NCBI GenBank assembly: GCA_021790935.1 | Contig: JAJYFL010000016.1 | Span: 1 to 49,073 of the forward strand | Reading direction: 5' to 3' | Source of the DNA: a bacterium | GTDB taxonomy: Bacteria > Vulcanimicrobiota > Vulcanimicrobiia > Vulcanimicrobiales > Vulcanimicrobiaceae | DNA: 49,073 nucleotides | Part shown: piece after piece, positions 20,311 through 45,020 of the stretch | Layout of the letters: every line of letters begins with the position of its first letter | Position numbering within the stretch: the first letter of the stretch is position 1 | Notes under the pieces: generated by a model | Database searches by the model: none | The model's input: only the letters and a program-made list of their open reading frames with translations | What the model was told of the DNA's origin: nothing | Translations under genes and position numbers: made by a program

Positions 20311-20398
20311 AAAGAAAGAAATGCAGAAATCAACGTGTCCAAGCGAAATGATAAAAAGGTGTGCTGTCCGCGCGAAGTGCTGTTAATGGATGTTTGAA

Positions 20399-21424
20399 CG
20401 GGTATCCCCCATACGGCTGACCTTTTCGACCGTGGATTGTCGGTTTCCCACCTTGCGGGGCTCGGCCCGGCGATGTGATTCGGACTTTGGGTGTCATTTG
20501 GGACGCGAGAGACGATCTCACGTGCCACCGAACGCTGAAAAAGCCGGACGCACGGAAGGGCGCAGCTCTCCCGTCGTTTTCGCGACGTACGCAGCCACCG
20601 GGTCGCTCATGCCAACGCGGAAGCTGGGGGCGAGCGTAAGTCGGCAATCGGGCGCAGAATGTCAGCGAACAGCGATCGTGGGATCGCGATCCCGGCCATC
20701 TGAAACGCGACGTACCGGCCGTGGCTGACCACCTTCGCACCGATCTTGATCAGCTTCTCCCGAAGCGTCGTCAGCGACCATTCGGCAATCGCCTCTGGAA
20801 TCGCCAGAGTCCGAAGGAAGCTGCCAAGATTATAGGCCAGCGCGTGAAGCTAAAGACGAACCGCGTTCGCATCGAACGAGCTGCATGAAAGTCGCCTGCC
20901 TTTCGAGGTGCGTTCCCATTCTATCATCCATTGCTCGCATGTGCCGCGTTTATTATAAAAGGTGACTACATTCGTAGACTTGCAGCGCAGGTTCGTAACG
21001 ATGAAGCCGACGCGCGGAAACCGTTCGCCAGGGTGCCACTCCACCTTGGCGACAACCCGACGAGGTCGCGACCAACTCGCCGCCTTGTGGCGGAAGCTCT
21101 TGTGGACTCGCTGCACGTAGTGCGCCGGCCGTCCAACCGGCCGCCACAGCACGTGAGCTGTCTCTGCCTGGAGAATTTGATTCACCGGAAGTCGGATCGT
21201 GTACTCGATGCCTTCTGATTCGAGGTAATCGTACATTTCTGGCTCGGCGAAGGCGGCGTCTCCACGAAAGGCGATGCCTTGGGTAGATTCTTGGTAACGC
21301 GCAACGGCCGGCTTGAGCACCGCTTCCCAGCCGTCGGCGCTATGTCGGTTGCCGGTGCGCAGAGCGGCTCGTGCCGGATCGTTCTCCTGATTCAAAAACG
21401 AAGAGCGGATGGTAGGAAGAGCGG
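20399..21424 (-). mobile_element. IS1380-family element, 5'-truncated copy
   Basis: On the minus strand the right end reads ATGGGGGATACCCG, ending at 20399 with flank TGAA. It matches the ends of the copies at 36765, 39435 and 44906. The left part of the element is missing: homology to the intact copy starts near 21424, inside a broken esterase gene. Between the transposase stop (20607) and the end lies the usual non-coding tail of about 200 bases. Confidence 0.75.
20607..21424 (-). pseudogene. IS1380-family transposase remnant
   Basis: Alignable to the intact transposase at 37875-39230 from about its residue 190 to the end. Readable blocks are NRHSADGWEAVLKP, GIAFRGDAAFAEPEMYDYLESEGIEY, RPVGRPAHYVQRVHKSFR, RVVAKVEWHPGERFPRVGFIVTNLR and YNKRGTCEQW. 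Lesions: the first half is lost, a small indel near 21400 breaks FVFNQ, and a TAG at about 20850 replaces the Gln of RLQLHALAYNLG. The frame then continues to the normal C-terminus. Confidence 0.85.
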
Positions 21425-35597: not shown

Positions 35598-35742
35598 ATT
35601 CGCGTAACACGCCGGCCGCAATGCGTGTGACGCGCGCTACCATCAAGTTTGCAGTGTCGTCACAAAACGAAACGCACCGCGTTATAGGATGATGCGGAAA
35701 AGCCTGTCCGAGTTGCAGCTGTTGTTATCCGATTTAACTTAA

Positions 35743-36765
35743 CCCGCATTCACCGGATGGATGCGTAAAGTTGCTGCACGTTCGCAGCGATTTCGCTATA
35801 CTTAGCAAGTGATTTGCGCTGATGATGTAACGCCAAAGTTAACGAACCCGACGGGTGAAGCTCAGGACGGCGTTCTTAGACCCGATTTCGACCGGCGTAT
35901 CATGCTTCAGTTTCGCAGATCGGTTGTCACGTCGGATGCGGGTCTGCTCGCGTATCGGGAACTCGATGACGCACTTGGATTGACTCCAGCGGCCGGTGGC
36001 CTTCTCGCGGATGCGCGCACCGGAAAGAACGGTCGCCATGCACTCGTCGGCATGTTCCGCCAATCGGTCTTCGGCAGACTTGCGGGATACGAAGATGTGA
36101 ATGACGCCTTACGCTTACGTCACAACCCCGCCATGCGCTGGATCATCGGTGGCAAAGCAGCGAAAGGCTCGGGTGCGTCGCCGAGTCAGATGGGGCGGCT
36201 CGAAACGAACTGACTGGCAAGATCTGAAAACCTCGCAGCTCTCACCGATCTCTCGGGTCATTGGATCGACGAGGTCGCGAAGCGTCGCTCACGCCAACGT
36301 CGTTCGCCTGCAGCTTCATGCGCTCGCCTACAACCTCGGCAATTTCCTACGCCCGCTCGCGATACCCGCAGCGATTGAACAGTGGTCGCTCACGAGTCTG
36401 CGGGAGAATCTCATCAAGATCGGTGCCAAGGTCGTCAGTCACGGTCGCTACGTTACGTTCCAGATGGCGGAGGCCGCAATCCCGCGCAAGTTGTTCGCTG
36501 CGATCATGCGGAGAATCGCCACTTTGCGAGCGCCGCCGATGGCAACGGCAACATGAACACCCCGCCCGACAACATGCGCCGGAAACCAATGGGGAAGGTG
36601 CGTCCTGATGACAGTGCAGCGAGGTTTTTTGAGGCTTCGGGGCCGACGCGGGCTTCGTCTCGTGCCGAACCGACGGTTTGGCTCGCCGAGAGCCCGGAAA
36701 AACAACGGAATCGTCGAGCAGTGGTTCGAAAAGGACAGCCATATGGGGATAATGGGGAATACCCG
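35743..36765 (+). mobile_element. IS1380-family element with internal deletion
   Basis: Left end CCCGCATTCACCGG at 35743, right end GGGGAATACCCG at 36765, each next to TTAA (35739-35742 and 36766-36769), a perfect 4-base target duplication. It is 634 bp shorter than the intact copy at 37779. The non-coding left 130 bases and the right tail are conserved. The first ATG GGG of its right end reads only eight codons before a TAA. Confidence 0.85.
35809..36556 (+). pseudogene. IS1380 transposase with stop and 634-bp deletion
   Basis: The 5' part starts GTG at 35809 and follows the intact copy to SPSQMGRLETN, where TGA (36211-36213) replaces the conserved Trp. It continues readable to the WIDEVAKRR region. 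At about 36292 the sequence jumps to VRLQLHALAYNLGNFLRPLAIP and runs to the normal C-terminus APPMATAT. The missing segment holds all catalytic residues, so the copy cannot be active by itself. Short GCCAACG/GCGAACGCC similarity at the junction suggests deletion between small repeats. Confidence 0.85.
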
Positions 36766-36806
36766 TTAAACGCGTCGCAGCGCTTGCGCTTGCCGCGATC
36801 GCGATT

Positions 36807-37778
36807 GTGGCTAACGCTGCGCGAGCGGACGCGCCCGCGCCATCGGTCTATGTGGGCGTTGAGGATCCAACGACGCACGGTGGTGCAACCACCGGCGTCT
36901 TTTCGCTTATGATTTCAAGCATCGGCAGGCCATTCACATTCGACCCGCGGTCGCTGCATTTTTCGTGGCAAGCCGAATATGCCTACGGCGGGCTGACGGC
37001 AACGCGGATTCCGGCTGCGATTCGCATCGGAGCCTGGACGAAAGCCAATCTCTATCCGTCGTACATTGATACCAGCCCAGATCAAAACCTCGAACGCGCG
37101 TACCAAGCACAGCTGTACTTTGGCGCAGCGCCAGGTGCTCCGGGCCGCTACGAACTCACGGTCAGCGCGGATACTGGTTTCGCGCATACCGACCGGGGAG
37201 TCCCACTCGCTCTCCGCAATTCCAACGTGGTGGAAGTGTACTGGCCCGACGAACGCAACGGCGACGCCGCCTCAGCCGATCTTCGCCGACGCATCCTCGG
37301 ACGAACCGTCTACGCATTCGGCGGATCGCTCCTTGAATGCCGAAGCTCGAATAAAGTCGAACCGTTTAGCGTGCCGCTGCGCGTGACGCGCGTGAGCAGA
37401 CATGTCGGCACCGCATATTGGCTAGAAACGGGGGCGACGGGCCACGCGTACCCTACATCCTTTGTCGCAATCGATCCGATCGAAGTCAACGTAGACGGCT
37501 GTGACCCCGGTTTTCGATTCGCCGACCCATGGCAAGCCGGCGTTTCGATTACAACGCAGGCGCCGCCGCCGAGCCTTCAGCCCAACGCGACTATCGTCCC
37601 GGGAATGTCACGCAATGCGGTGCTGTGGTTGCTTGGCTATCCCGATCAGTTCGGCACGGCGCAGTATTTCAACGCTCTTGGCCAGTGGGAGTACGCTTGG
37701 CCTCAGGGGGTGTCCAAATCGGTGACCTTTGAGCACGACCGCGTCGTGCATTACACGCCGCCGGGGAATCCACTTTAA
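36807..37778 (+). CDS. Exported protein of unknown function, start lost at an IS junction
   Basis: A 323-residue frame whose translation from GTG 36807 reads VANAARADAPAPSVYVG. The preceding in-frame codons read KRVAALALAAIAI, which with it make a complete signal peptide without a start codon. They begin at the TTAA next to the IS1380 right end, so the insertion probably removed the native ATG. The mature part has GRPFTFDPRSLHFSW and a C-terminal domain with ATIVPGMSRNAVLWLLGYPDQFGT, resembling the SmpA/BamE-like fold that often begins G-M-S-x-x-x-V. The stop TAA coincides with the TTAA used by the next IS copy. Confidence 0.65.
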   Translation: MANAARADAPAPSVYVGVEDPTTHGGATTGVFSLMISSIGRPFTFDPRSLHFSWQAEYAYGGLTATRIPAAIRIGAWTKANLYPSYIDTSPDQNLERAYQAQLYFGAAPGAPGRYELTVSADTGFAHTDRGVPLALRNSNVVEVYWPDERNGDAASADLRRRILGRTVYAFGGSLLECRSSNKVEPFSVPLRVTRVSRHVGTAYWLETGATGHAYPTSFVAIDPIEVNVDGCDPGFRFADPWQAGVSITTQAPPPSLQPNATIVPGMSRNAVLWLLGYPDQFGTAQYFNALGQWEYAWPQGVSKSVTFEHDRVVHYTPPGNPL

Positions 37779-37833
37779 GCCCGCATTCACCGGATGGACG
37801 CGTAAAGTTGCTGCACGTTCGCGGCGATGTCGC

Positions 37834-37839
37834 TATACT
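37834..37839 (+). promoter_or_regulatory. -10 box of the IS1380 transposase promoter
   Basis: TATACT, 35 bases before the transposase GTG. The same box is kept in the copy at 35797-35802. No good -35 box is seen at the ideal distance; TTGCTG lies 20 bases upstream. Confidence 0.4.
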
Positions 37840-37874
37840 TAGCAAGTGATTTGTGCTGATGATGTAACGCCAAA

Positions 37875-39230
37875 GTGACGAACCCGACGGGTGAAGCTCA
37901 GGACGACATTCTCAGGCTCGATTTCGACCGTCGTGTCATACTTGAGTTTCGCGGATCAGTTGTCACGTCGGATGCTGGTCTGCTCGCGTATCGCGAACTC
38001 GATGATGCACTTGGATTGACTCCGGCAGCCGGTAAGCTTCTTGCCGATGAACGCACGGGAAAGAACGGTCGGCACGCGCTCGTCGGCATGTTTCGCCAAT
38101 CCGTCTTCGGAAGACTTGCAGGATATGAAGACGTAAACGACACGTTGCGCTTACGTCACAACCCCGCGATGCGCTGGATCATCGGTGGTAAAGCAGCGAA
38201 AGGCTTGGGCGCGTCGCCGAGCCAGATGGGGCGCTTCGATACCAACTGGCTTGCGAAGTCGGAAAATCTGGCAACGCTTAGCGATCTCTCCGGTCAATGG
38301 ATCGACCGTGTAGCGAAACGTCGCCAACGCAGTCGCGTGGTTCTCGATCTGGATTCGAGCGTAAGCCCGACGCATGGCGATCAAGAGCGTAGCGTTTGGA
38401 ATGGGCATTTCGGCTGCACCTGCTACCATCCGCTCTTCGTTTTCAATCAGGATGGCGATCTGGAACGATGCGCTCTGCGCCCCGGCAACGTGCATAGCGC
38501 CGACGGATGGGAAGCGGTCCTTAAGCCGGTCGTCGCACGTTACCAAGGGACGGCAACAGGCATCGCCTTTCGCGGCGACGCGGCCTTCGCTCAACCGAGT
38601 ATGTATGAGTTCTTGGAATCCGAAGGGATTGAGTATGCGATCCGCCTCCCGGCGAATCAAGTTCTCCAAGCGCAAATCGGTCATCTGCTCAAGCGGCCGG
38701 TCGGACGGCCGGCGCACTACGTGCAGCGTTTCTACAAGAGCTTCCGCTACCAGGCGGCGAGTTGGTCGCGTCCTCGTCGGGTTGTCGCCAAGGTGGAGTG
38801 GCATCTCGGAGAACTATTCCCGCGCGTCGGCTTCATCGTCACGAACTTGCGCCATGCGTCCAAGAATGTCGTCGGGTTTTACAACAGGCGCGGGACGGCT
38901 GAGCAATGGATCAAAGAAGGCAAAAATGCGATCAAGTGGACGCGGCTGTCGTGTCGCTCGTTCAACGCGAACGCCGTTCGCCTGCAGCTCCACGCGCTCG
39001 CCTATAATCTCGGGAACTTCCTTCGCACGCTGGCGACTCCCGAATCCATTGCCGAGTGGTCTCTGACGAGCCTGCGCGAGAAGCTGATCAAGATCGGCGC
39101 AAAGGTCGTTAGTCATGGTCGCTACGTCACGTTTCAGATGGCGGAGGTCGCGATCCCGCGCAAACTGTTCGGTGCGATCATGGAGAGAATCGCTGCTTTG
39201 CGAGCGCCGCCGATGGCGACGGCGACATGA
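37875..39230 (+). CDS. IS1380-family transposase, full length
   Basis: A 451-residue DDE transposase. Blocks include FRGSVVTSDAGLLAYRELDDALGLT, VFGRLAGYEDVNDTLRLRHNP, the first catalytic region VVLDLDSSVSPTHG, GIAFRGDAAFAQPSMYEFLESEGIEYAIRLP (second Asp), TAEQWIKEGKNAIKW (Glu region) and NAVRLQLHALAYNLGNFLRTLA. The start is GTG 37875; in the copy at 35809 an extra T keeps a longer N-terminus MICADDVTPKL in frame. It is the only apparently functional copy in the window and could mobilise the defective ones. Confidence 0.93.
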   Translation: MTNPTGEAQDDILRLDFDRRVILEFRGSVVTSDAGLLAYRELDDALGLTPAAGKLLADERTGKNGRHALVGMFRQSVFGRLAGYEDVNDTLRLRHNPAMRWIIGGKAAKGLGASPSQMGRFDTNWLAKSENLATLSDLSGQWIDRVAKRRQRSRVVLDLDSSVSPTHGDQERSVWNGHFGCTCYHPLFVFNQDGDLERCALRPGNVHSADGWEAVLKPVVARYQGTATGIAFRGDAAFAQPSMYEFLESEGIEYAIRLPANQVLQAQIGHLLKRPVGRPAHYVQRFYKSFRYQAASWSRPRRVVAKVEWHLGELFPRVGFIVTNLRHASKNVVGFYNRRGTAEQWIKEGKNAIKWTRLSCRSFNANAVRLQLHALAYNLGNFLRTLATPESIAEWSLTSLREKLIKIGAKVVSHGRYVTFQMAEVAIPRKLFGAIMERIAALRAPPMATAT

Positions 39231-39409
39231 ACACACGGGCCGTCTCCGTGCGCGCGGAGAAAACGACGGGAGAGCTGCGCCATTATGTGGATCCCGCGGG
39301 TTTGTTTAGCGGGCGGAGGTCAAAAAGCTGGCCCATTTCGTACCGAGCGAGCCAAACCGGCCGCCGAACCGTCCGCAAACCGCCGGAATCATCCGGCGGC
39401 GACTCGAAT

Positions 39410-39423
39410 AGGAGAGCCATATG
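39410..39423 (+). promoter_or_regulatory. IS-borne ribosome binding site and start codon
   Basis: AGGAGAG, a 4-base spacer and ATG at 39421, all inside the IS1380 right end. The ATG reads in frame through the junction into the exported protein downstream. Confidence 0.65.
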
Positions 39424-40035
39424 GGGAATCCCGGCTTAGGCAAATCCAGGCTTAGATCTGCAGCCGTGCTCGTAGCATTTCTCATGCTAGGGCCGCGGGT
39501 CTCTGCTGCTCAAGGCATTAACAAGATTTTCAATAATCGAGTGGAGCTTGCCGGAGGCGCCGCGGATTCGCTTGTTCAAGCGACAGCACAACTGGTCAAG
39601 GATGGTGCCTCGCTCTCGAGCCTACGGTCCTATACTGTCAAATACAGTTCTGGAGGGGGTGGCGCAGGCTGTGTTGTCACATTTACCGCTCCGAGCGGCC
39701 TAAAATCCACATTCGACGTTTCTGGCAATGTTGTGACGCAGAGACGCGCAGCCATACCGGCCAATTTGGGCTGGACGATTACCGGTGCATATGTCTCGGC
39801 TCTATATCAAGGCTACGCCATCTGGCATACGACGCCTATTGGTTCGCATTGGTCGCTATCAAGTGTAGGAGTTACAATCGTCCATCCTTTCAACAACGAT
39901 CCAGCGACCTATTGGATCTATTTTTCGCCACCGGAAATGAAGCATGCGGGACCAACGGTGGGCTGTGGCTCGTCCCGAGGCTTCTCCGTAAATGTTGATA
40001 CCTTTCAAGCGAACCCACTGAAACCGGTATGCTGA
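39421..40035 (+). CDS. Exported protein of unknown function, started by the IS1380 end
   Basis: A 204-residue protein. The first five residues MGNPG come from the IS right end; the native part continues LGKSRLRSAAVLVAFLMLGPRVSAAQG, a signal peptide with cleavage after SAA. The mature protein has no recognised domain: features are VKYSSGGGGAGCVVTFTAPSG, SNPATYWIYF-like aromatic strands and a C-terminal GCGSSRGFSVNV, with four Cys that could form disulfides. The native start was probably displaced by the insertion, and translation is now likely initiated from the IS sequence. Confidence 0.75.
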   Translation: MGNPGLGKSRLRSAAVLVAFLMLGPRVSAAQGINKIFNNRVELAGGAADSLVQATAQLVKDGASLSSLRSYTVKYSSGGGGAGCVVTFTAPSGLKSTFDVSGNVVTQRRAAIPANLGWTITGAYVSALYQGYAIWHTTPIGSHWSLSSVGVTIVHPFNNDPATYWIYFSPPEMKHAGPTVGCGSSRGFSVNVDTFQANPLKPVC

Positions 40036-40194
40036 GCAACTTGCGAGACCCCAATTCGATGCTTACAACAGCACGCGGCGCATATCGGTTTAGAGTATAT
40101 TCTCCTCACATCCCACGATACTGCCCGGCCGTCTTGATCTCATGGAGGGCGGCCCGCCAATCTGTAGATCGTGGTTCAGGCCAACAGGCTCATT

Positions 40195-41061
40195 CTAGGC
40201 TGTATCGGCGGTCGGTTTGCGTGCGAAAAGCTTGATGCCGAGAGCAGCGGTAACGAGCGCGTTCCGGGTTACCGGGCGCCGTACGCCTAGTGGTATCGCG
40301 GCAAGTGCTCGCTCTGCAGCCACGTACCAGCCGGCGCGAACTCTGAGTGTGCGGTTGCCGCGTCCTACGATCGCCGTCAAGTCAGTGAAACCGGCTCTTT
40401 GAAAGAGTTCGCACAACTCCCCCGCGCTGTATTCCCGGAGGTGCAGGCCCTGGGCCGTATCCGAAAAATAGCGCGATATATCGTGTGGACCCGACAAGCG
40501 GTTCGGCGTGATGCATAAGTATACGCCGCCCGGGCGCAGGATACGAAAAATTTCACGCAATTGATCGCTCGCGTCGTCCGGATGAAGATGCTCCATCAAT
40601 TGATTGCTATAGGCGACATCTACGCTGTTCGTCGGAAGGGGTATGCTGCTGCCGTCAGACAAGATGAGTTTGAAATTATCCGGGGGGTTCTCACTTTTCG
40701 CGATTTCGGCGGAGACGTCGACGCCGTAGGACAACGCAACACGGCGTGCCACAGCAAAGGCCAGAGCGCAGTCGCCAGCGCCAATCTCGACAAATGTTGA
40801 CTCGCGAAAAAGGTACGCCTCAAGGAGTCCGAGCTGGCGCGCTACCGCAGCGGCGCGATTTACGGCGTCGACGCGCTGAGTAGTCTGCGGATGATCCGGT
40901 ACGCTTCGAAAAAGCTCGTCGTAAACCGTAGCATAGAGTCGCCGACGCTCGGCTTTATCGGCCTCACGCAGTTTGCTCGCGAGGCGTCGCTCGATCTCGT
41001 AATGAGCTCGGAGACGCTCCGAAGAGCGTGCCCCCGGGTCATTGGGCGATGCAAACATCAT
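40195..41061 (-). CDS. Class I SAM-dependent methyltransferase
   Basis: A 288-residue protein. The SAM-binding motif I is FVEIGAGDCALAFAVARR, followed by LSYGVDVS (motif II acid), DGSSIPLPTNSVDVAYSNQLMEHLHPDD and FRILRPGGVYLCITPNR. This is a Methyltransf_11-type fold. A helical N-terminal extension (about 90 residues) precedes the core. ATG at 41061 was chosen; the frame is open to 41220, but that part overlaps IS1380-like end sequence. The substrate is unknown; such enzymes near surface-polymer genes often modify sugars or lipids, but none are adjacent. Confidence 0.83.
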   Translation of the reverse strand: MMFASPNDPGARSSERLRAHYEIERRLASKLREADKAERRRLYATVYDELFRSVPDHPQTTQRVDAVNRAAAVARQLGLLEAYLFRESTFVEIGAGDCALAFAVARRVALSYGVDVSAEIAKSENPPDNFKLILSDGSSIPLPTNSVDVAYSNQLMEHLHPDDASDQLREIFRILRPGGVYLCITPNRLSGPHDISRYFSDTAQGLHLREYSAGELCELFQRAGFTDLTAIVGRGNRTLRVRAGWYVAAERALAAIPLGVRRPVTRNALVTAALGIKLFARKPTADTA

Positions 41062-41693
41062 GGGTCTCGTTCCCCATATGGTCGCTCTTTCCCACTCCAG
41101 GATGACGGCTTCCGGCCTGGAGAGCGCAGACCGGCGCTTTGGTGACGGGGTTTGGTGAAGATCGACGCCCGTCGCCCTTAGTCCAGGCCTTCTTCGACGA
41201 GCGCGACGAAGGCCATCCAATGCCTCGGGTGCGGCACGCGTGTCCCGGCGCGGAACCGAGAGCAGGCCGCCGCGACAGGCCCGTCGCGCTGGCGATCGCG
41301 TTCACGCAGCGCGGAATGCTTATGCAAAAGCGCGCCGGGCCGCCGAGCTTCGGCGTCCCGGTGCGGAACCGCGAGTAGGTCGTGAGTGAGCGGCCCACCA
41401 CCTACGCGATAGCGTTCAGTCTGGTGCGACGCCTCTGGCTCGTTGACGCGGGCCGAGAGCGCCTTGGTGCCTTCATACGTTGGAGGTTTCATGGTGTTGC
41501 ACGGCGACCGTTTGCGATAGCATGGAGGGATGCGCGCTTAATCAGCAGTTTCTTGCCGCGTGCCTTCATTGCCGGTGTACCAATGGCAACAAACTCCTTC
41601 TTCTTCTTGTCGTTTCGTGGGAGATTCGTGGCCCTCACGGCAAGCGCACATGAGGCAGCCCCAACGCCCGGCCCTCTTATCCTTCGGCGGACG
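41062..41693. other. Gene-poor stretch with an IS1380-like end
   Basis: No gene can be supported. On the minus strand, CCATATGGGGAAC at about 41068-41080 resembles the IS1380 right end (CCATATGGGGAAT in the copy ending at 39435) and points towards the methyltransferase. The upstream sequence is not clearly transposase. A minus-strand frame around 41489-41640 is Lys-rich and short; it has no family signature. Confidence 0.35.
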
Positions 41694-44144: not shown

Positions 44145-44233
44145 CGGGATGCCCTGACCCGAGCCGGTCGGCCGGTTTCGGGGCCTCCCCCCTTGGCCGT
44201 TACGATTGCGGCGAGTGACGGGGTTGAGTACGC

Positions 44234-44297
44234 GTGATCGCAGTTCTCTCGTCGCTCGTCATTTCGCTCGCGTTGGCGCTTCTGTGTCTCGCGATTC
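44234..44297 (+). pseudogene. Truncated N-terminal membrane segment
   Basis: From GTG 44234 the frame reads VIAVLSSLVISLALALLCLAI, a single hydrophobic helix, then enters IS1380 sequence at about 44298. It looks like the first 20 residues of a membrane or exported protein destroyed by the insertion. No downstream part is recognisable beyond the IS. Confidence 0.4.
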
Positions 44298-44705
44298 CGC
44301 GTCGGCTTCATCGTTACGGACCTGCGCTGCAAGTCTACGAATGTAGTCGCCTTTTATAATAAGCGCGGCACATGCGAGCAATGGATAAGAGAATGGAAAG
44401 GCGCCTTGAAAGGCACGCGGCTTTCATGCCGCTCGTTCGATGCGAACGCGGTTTGTCTCCAACTTTACGCGCTGGCCTATAATCTTGGCAGCTTCCTTCG
44501 GACCCTGGCGATTCCAGAGGCGATTGCCGAATGGTCGCTGACGACGCTTCGGGAGAAGCCGATTAAGATCGGTGCGAAGGTGGTCAGCCACGGCCGGTAC
44601 GTCGCGTTCCAAATGGCCGGGATCGCGATCCCGCGGAAGTTATTCGCCGCGATTGTGGAGGGAATCGTCGCTTTGCGATCTCCGCCCTTGGCGACGGCAA
44701 CATGA
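44298..44705 (+). pseudogene. IS1380 transposase C-terminal remnant
   Basis: An open frame reads RVGFIVTDLRCKSTNVV, FYNKRGTCEQWIREW, LQLYALAYNLGSFLRTLAIPEAIAEWSLTTLREKP and ends APPLATAT-like (RSPPLATAT). It is closer to the copy at 20607 (shares RCKSTNVV, NKRGTCEQW and IAIPR) than to the intact one. Catalytic Asp residues are absent. Confidence 0.85.
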
Positions 44706-44906
44706 ACGCCCGGTCGGCGTCGGTCCAGCGAAAACAGCGGGAGATTTGCGCCCTTTCGGCCGTGCAACCTGGTTTTTGGGGCCCTGGCAGGCCGGTGTGG
44801 GCTGCATTTCGCCCACAACCGACGACTTCGCTTAGCCAATGCCCGGAAAACGACCGGAAGGCTCCGGCAGCAACCCGAACGGGAGGTCCAAATGGGGAAT
44901 CCCAGC
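44298..44906 (+). mobile_element. IS1380-family element, 3' third only
   Basis: Homologous to the last third of the intact copy. The right end GGGGAATCCCAGC stops at 44906 and is followed by TTAA (44907-44910). The left end is lost. The tail carries GGGAGG, 6 bases and ATG (44892), parallel to the intact copy. Confidence 0.8.
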
Positions 44907-45020
44907 TTAACATACGGTTTGTTCCGAATCCTGCGTTCTCCCCAATCTGCACCGCTTCGTGCATTCTACGCTATCAACTTCGTGCCGCGGTGCCAGGTCC
45001 CACCGGGGCCCTATCTCGAA

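Follow-up and report, generated by a model that had tools for sequence, protein, structure and literature searches.

A probable ISEcp1-like transposition unit in which an IS1380-family right end is joined in frame to a captured gene

We propose that the right end of an IS1380-family insertion sequence (IS) is part of an ISEcp1-like unit that carries a captured gene, and that the start codon within this end is fused in frame to the gene by luck, a reading to which we assign a probability of about 0.8. The window, the whole 49,073-nucleotide stretch of DNA that we analyzed, corresponds to contig C24 of a genome of 2.65 Mb, for which most of the named relatives are assemblies of Candidatus Eremiobacterota / WPS-2; these relatives are largely metagenome bins, and some are fragmentary. 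The source genome contains five matches to the transposase, every one of them on the window contig. We also observed that an assembly from another genus (L012/L040, G078:C16; an 8.3-kb contig with a coverage of 1.8) matches the element and its surroundings at 100% identity over at least 5 kb, which suggests either cross-binning or very recent transfer.

The element encodes an intact 451-aa IS1380-group DDE transposase (37875-39230, + strand) that matches PF13701 (DDE_Tnp_1_4), which we take to be the Pfam family of the IS1380 group, with E = 9e-131 over residues 15-443. Relatives of this transposase, 60-86% identical, are spread over many phyla. Imperfect terminal inverted repeats (TIRs) that recur in many copies are found at both ends (AGCCCGCATTCACCGGATG on the left, CATATGGGGAATCCCGG on the right). 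The left TIR, AGCCCGCATTCACCGGATGG (37778-37797, - strand), reads outward as CATCCGGTGAATGCGGGCT and recurs across the family. The right TIR, together with the junction bases CTTA, spans 39418-39438 (+ strand) and includes an ATG at 39421; its columns are near-invariant among 42 right ends, where the conserved block reads CATATGGGGAAT.CC.G.T.A. Based on its transposase group and terminal repeats, the element is a member of the IS1380 family. The insertion target is NTNA, at left ends as well as right ends, and inspection by eye of about 35 loci found mostly no target duplication, which in the IS1380 family measures 4-5 bp, at the true right TIR. Two further arrangements of these repeats were observed. 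A second outward terminal repeat (e.g. TAAGATGTATTTTTAGCATTCATCCGGCGAATCCGGGCTAA) lies within about 45 nt past the right end at three loci of one genome (G058: L207, L209 and L210), and a roughly 60-bp sequence with the TIR of this IS at both ends and purines before an ATG (L010 1805-1866; G000:C33 about 269801-269866) contains no transposase and looks like a MITE or a relic.

The initial annotation had described the right end of the intact copy as a hairpin followed by a ribosome site and a start codon that read without a stop into a gene whose own start is missing. The features of the end and the open frame were confirmed, and the absence of the gene's own start is supported. The hairpin, CCGCCGGA-ATCA-TCCGGCGG (39380-39399, + strand; arms 39380-39387 and 39392-39399), forms an exact 8-bp stem in ViennaRNA and stands upstream of the Shine-Dalgarno (SD)-like sequence AGGAGAG (39410-39416, + strand), a position at which pairing to the anti-SD is enriched across the family. 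This hairpin is not followed by a T-run, it also partly repeats the TIR core CATCCGGCG, and it recurs with z < -2 in 17 of 65 right ends. The ATG at 39421-39423 is spaced 6 nt from GGAG and opens the frame ATG GGG AAT CCC GGC TTA GGC AAA, in which the first five codons are contributed by the IS end and no stop is encountered up to 40035.

The fused open reading frame (ORF; 39421-40035, + strand) is predicted to encode a 204-aa probable secreted protein, with a signal peptide assigned by eye, and its predicted peptides include MGNPGLGK and GNPGFSAISEAADK; internal candidate start codons are a GTG at 39466 and an ATG near 39487. A paralogue with an intact ORF (G000:C2:10154-10741) is 91% identical to the window gene in protein and 95% in DNA, and has a different N-terminus, MNLKACLGSATVLVAFLMLGSRVSAAQG (MNLK...), preceded by an AAGGA stretch. 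DNA homology between the two opens at 39442, which corresponds to codon four of the paralogue and lies a few bases beyond the IS junction; the window copy is consequently without the leader and first three codons of the paralogue. The IS-borne ATG is the sole in-frame ATG upstream of the homologous part. As the paralogue has a different start and homology begins only past the IS junction, the start of the window gene appears to be supplied by the IS. This comparison supports the conclusion that the window IS end provides a gene that is without its own start with both an SD and an in-frame start codon, and translation would then begin at the fused ATG. The idea that the start of the paralogue is itself a decayed IS right end was rejected (best local alignment score of 40; shuffle maxima up to 43).

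It could be argued that the secreted-protein gene is a dying relic, fused to the IS by chance and untranslated from the IS start. In-frame joining is a one-in-three event and the gene has a codon-usage score near zero, both of which are compatible with such a relic. However, the ORF is intact over 204 codons, its 95% identical paralogue is intact as well, and the IS start combines a strong SD with a 6-nt spacing, and we regard this explanation as unlikely.

The limits of the captured DNA argue for a transposition unit that extends beyond the gene. The captured segment (39442-40088, + strand) is a 647-bp blastn match, 95% identical to G000:C2:10151-10797, and exactly where this homology stops we found a candidate surrogate right end, CACGCGGCGCATATCGG (40072-40088, + strand). 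Including the junction bases (40072-40092), it agrees with the TIR at 12 of 14 fixed positions; its score corresponds to p = 0.006 per 100 nt of window and is the second-best + strand TIR match within 36901-41500. The sequence TTTA directly follows CACGCGGCGCATATCGG (40089-40092) and also directly precedes the left end of the IS (37774-37777), as expected of a 4-bp target duplication, and removal of 37778-40092 from the sequence rejoins the flanks so that the 323-aa gene on the left regains its stop codon, TAG. The TTTA repeat by itself is weak evidence, since NTNA is favored at either site.

From these boundaries we propose that the unit at 37778-40088 is an IS1380-family element mobilized together with a captured gene. 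An earlier IS insertion would have struck within the opening codons of the source gene, which would explain why the gene is without its leader and start. The transposase would then have paired the true left end with the TIR-like stretch just past the gene, bypassing the true right end in the manner of ISEcp1. The ATG of the TIR, which is preceded by AGGAG in this lineage, would have taken over as the start codon, in frame through luck at the junction, and transcription would probably come from the transposase promoter or from the right end. The paralogue on contig C2 differs from the window copy in the seven bases just ahead of the homology and has a decayed IS left end 236 bp upstream; judged by its sequence, this copy is not the direct donor.

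A second unit supports a capture mode for this IS subgroup. It is 5,006 bp long, occurs at 99.6% identity in two genomes whose flanking sequences are unrelated (L345+L346 8581-13586; L347+L348 13613-18618), and is the sole sequence common to the two carrier contigs. It begins exactly at the IS left end, extends 3.4 kb past the right TIR and carries three genes that we named by eye from their translations as sugar-nucleotide-type. Neither a clear target duplication nor a clear surrogate end was found for this unit. Gene capture may account for the rarity of target repeats at the true right TIR in most copies.

Beyond the window copy, we asked if the right end acts as a portable translation start, as had been proposed for these elements in general. 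The initial annotation had pointed to equivalent ends at three other places in the window, all of them in decayed copies. At two of them, copy A (35738-36775, + strand; ATG 36743) and copy C (44169-44910, + strand; ATG 44892), an ATG GGG with upstream purines was found; in copy D (20395-21395, - strand) the ATG lies at about 20412-20410, not at 20399. The effect on the neighboring sequence differs from that of the intact copy at all three. In copy A the ATG and the adjacent gene (36807-37778) are in different frames and the ATG frame halts at a TAA at the junction, the ATG frame of copy C stays open for 231 codons while the gene downstream carries an in-frame ATG of its own (45021), and the ATG frame of copy D ends after nine codons. 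Copy A, too, inserted within the opening codons of its neighbor, which is signal-peptide-like. Near its 5' end this gene (36807-37778) lacks an ATG and has only the GTG at 36807.

Across 99 family genomes, a 15-mer motif of the right end (at most one mismatch) gave about 104 matches versus 7 for the reversed pattern, well above the chance level. We gathered 67 right ends from genomes of the family, reduced to 64 once ends with homologous flanks were dropped. Among the 41 ends with a same-strand downstream gene, called with a codon-usage model trained on those loci themselves, the ATG was in frame in 16 and the other two frames accounted for 13 and 12 (16/41 versus 1/3, p = 0.51). For ORFs open from the junction the ATG frame was used in 6 of 25, the others in 9 and 10, and addition of three fusions missed by the codon model (the window gene, a GFA gene and a lipoprotein-like ORF) brings the in-frame count to 19 of 44. 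The expectation that the ATG would be in frame with the flanking gene in more than one third of cases therefore failed, a rate of about one third being the outcome that the annotation had named as speaking against it. With the in-frame rate at chance, a general start-codon device is not supported; what stands of the proposal is the window copy and the SD-like purines, present in 58% of Eremiobacterota right ends.

A rival reading is that the SD and ATG are kept because expression of a neighbor shields the insertion from purging. In its favor, SD-like pairing of -4 kcal/mol or below occurs in those 58% of right ends, compared with 27% at a control site placed 40 nt farther upstream, but the same energy threshold is also reached by 21 of 50 ends from relatives in other phyla (12 of 17 among transposase-linked Eremiobacterota ends). 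The ATG itself is part of the terminal repeat. The main set of right ends was picked by similarity to an ATG-bearing repeat, but the transposase-linked Eremiobacterota ends, which were not selected for the ATG, agree with it, 14 of 17 having the ATG. In the 50 other-phyla relatives this triplet reads CTG in 18, ATG in 18 and CCG in 11. The TIR also reads CATATGGGAAAT in Planctomycetes and Verrucomicrobia, and several Eremiobacterota ends of the CGCTTGCCATATG type retain the ATG without an SD. Taken with the lack of frame enrichment and the stop codons found at the junction, these data leave an evolved portable start improbable in our view, even with the orientation bias and the persisting in-frame fusions described below.

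With this NTNA target, a stop (TAA, TGA or TAG) occupies the codon after GGN in 31 of 64 ends, and a further 20 have TTA or TCA there. These stops in the ATG frame could make the right end a frame-independent leader, in which ribosomes load at the SD-ATG, translate a five-codon MGNPG, terminate at a TAA or TGA that the NTNA target contributes and then reinitiate at the neighboring gene's own start. Stop-restart layouts are present at several loci (TGATATG at L206, CCATGA at L233, TAAAATG at L244 and TAAGTG at L165), and right ends are strongly biased toward gene starts, as would be expected of such a leader. Yet the NTNA target preference alone accounts for the junction stops, left ends share the motif, and the neighbors' own starts lie at varied distances, so that we hold reinitiation to be doubtful.

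The orientation of the ends was unexpected: right ends face a same-strand versus an opposite-strand gene in 41:3 cases, and left ends read outward, a set likewise picked by pattern, do so in 19:24 (Fisher p = 5e-7). The bias holds across thresholds and is 18:0 among copies that still have transposase sequence.

Some in-frame fusions have persisted. A 0.5-kb segment with a GFA-family gene (PF04828) is found in six genomes with mostly unrelated flanks (L245, L246, L247, L248, L252 and L253). In five of the six an IS1380-type right end, or what is left of one, immediately precedes the gene, and in four the gene is in frame after the IS right end, with two different end types and a length difference that keeps the frame. 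The gene's own ATG is AAG in one genome (G006), leaving the IS start as the only one in frame near the 5' end; the IS end there is of a type without an SD. In another (G007) the ATG of the gene is joined directly to a sequence resembling the IS-end hairpin and leader, and the TIR is gone. A search beyond the gene for a TIR-like end bounding the mobile GFA segment found none. In two species (G035 and G038), the IS ATG is the candidate start of a lipoprotein-like 199-aa ORF that otherwise lacks an ATG near its 5' end, though GTG and TTG codons follow. A few of these fusions look domesticated, and together with the orientation bias they would fit either selection on the expression of neighbors or repeated capture of rightward DNA. 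A broader possibility, which we offer tentatively and with little confidence, is that the right end is a transferable expression leader composed of hairpin, SD, ATG and five-codon ORF, acting by in-frame fusion or by stop and hand-over; if true, it would account for the 41:3 bias and for IS-derived starts that outlive decay of the element.

The closest known system to our preferred reading, a captured gene within an ISEcp1-like unit, is ISEcp1 itself. This element, also of the IS1380 family, combines its left end with an imperfect right end located past the captured gene (Poirel 2005, via PMC12589106). The two systems share an IS1380-group transposase, an intact left end, imperfect right ends that carry downstream genes, and a captured gene collinear past the right end and reliant on IS signals. 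In this IS subgroup, genes are carried with the IS in the 647-bp segment and, in two genomes, in the 5,006-bp unit, and the window unit has the imperfect far right end. In contrast to the 5-bp target repeat of ISEcp1, the window unit has a 4-bp, NTNA-type repeat; the terminal repeats differ, and the host is an uncultured member of the Eremiobacterota. ISEcp1 is described as giving -35/-10 promoter boxes, whereas the window IS end appears to give an SD and a start codon (PMC12589106).

Partial parallels exist elsewhere. An IS1380-like element upstream of crxA in Bacteroides xylanisolvens likewise provides what is needed for expression, but by promoter activation, with transcription starting 160 nt before the start codon, and the excerpts of that report describe no translational fusion (PMC9472255). 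IS copies of Amoebophilus asiaticus have same-strand genes within 50 bp, some too close for upstream signals of their own; there, read-through transcripts were detected by RT-PCR, and an IS-borne start codon is not described in the sections consulted (PMC3196728). The piggyBac elements, for which IS1380 transposases serve as outgroup, insert at 4-bp sites resembling TTAA, TTAG and CTAA being among the variants, but are eukaryotic, and comparable gene capture is not described in the portion of the source used (PMC10813416). Nothing comparable to IS-supplied start codons appeared in the literature searched, which covered few subscription journals.

Insertion sequences lend promoters to the genes they move, and the capture route of ISEcp1 spreads CTX-M genes. 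Here, an IS would lend a ribosome site and the opening codons, and would carry genes by the same capture route as ISEcp1 and CTX-M, in a phylum for which most genomes come from uncultured members. The orientation of right ends toward gene starts may be a simple sign that this end does something for its neighbors.
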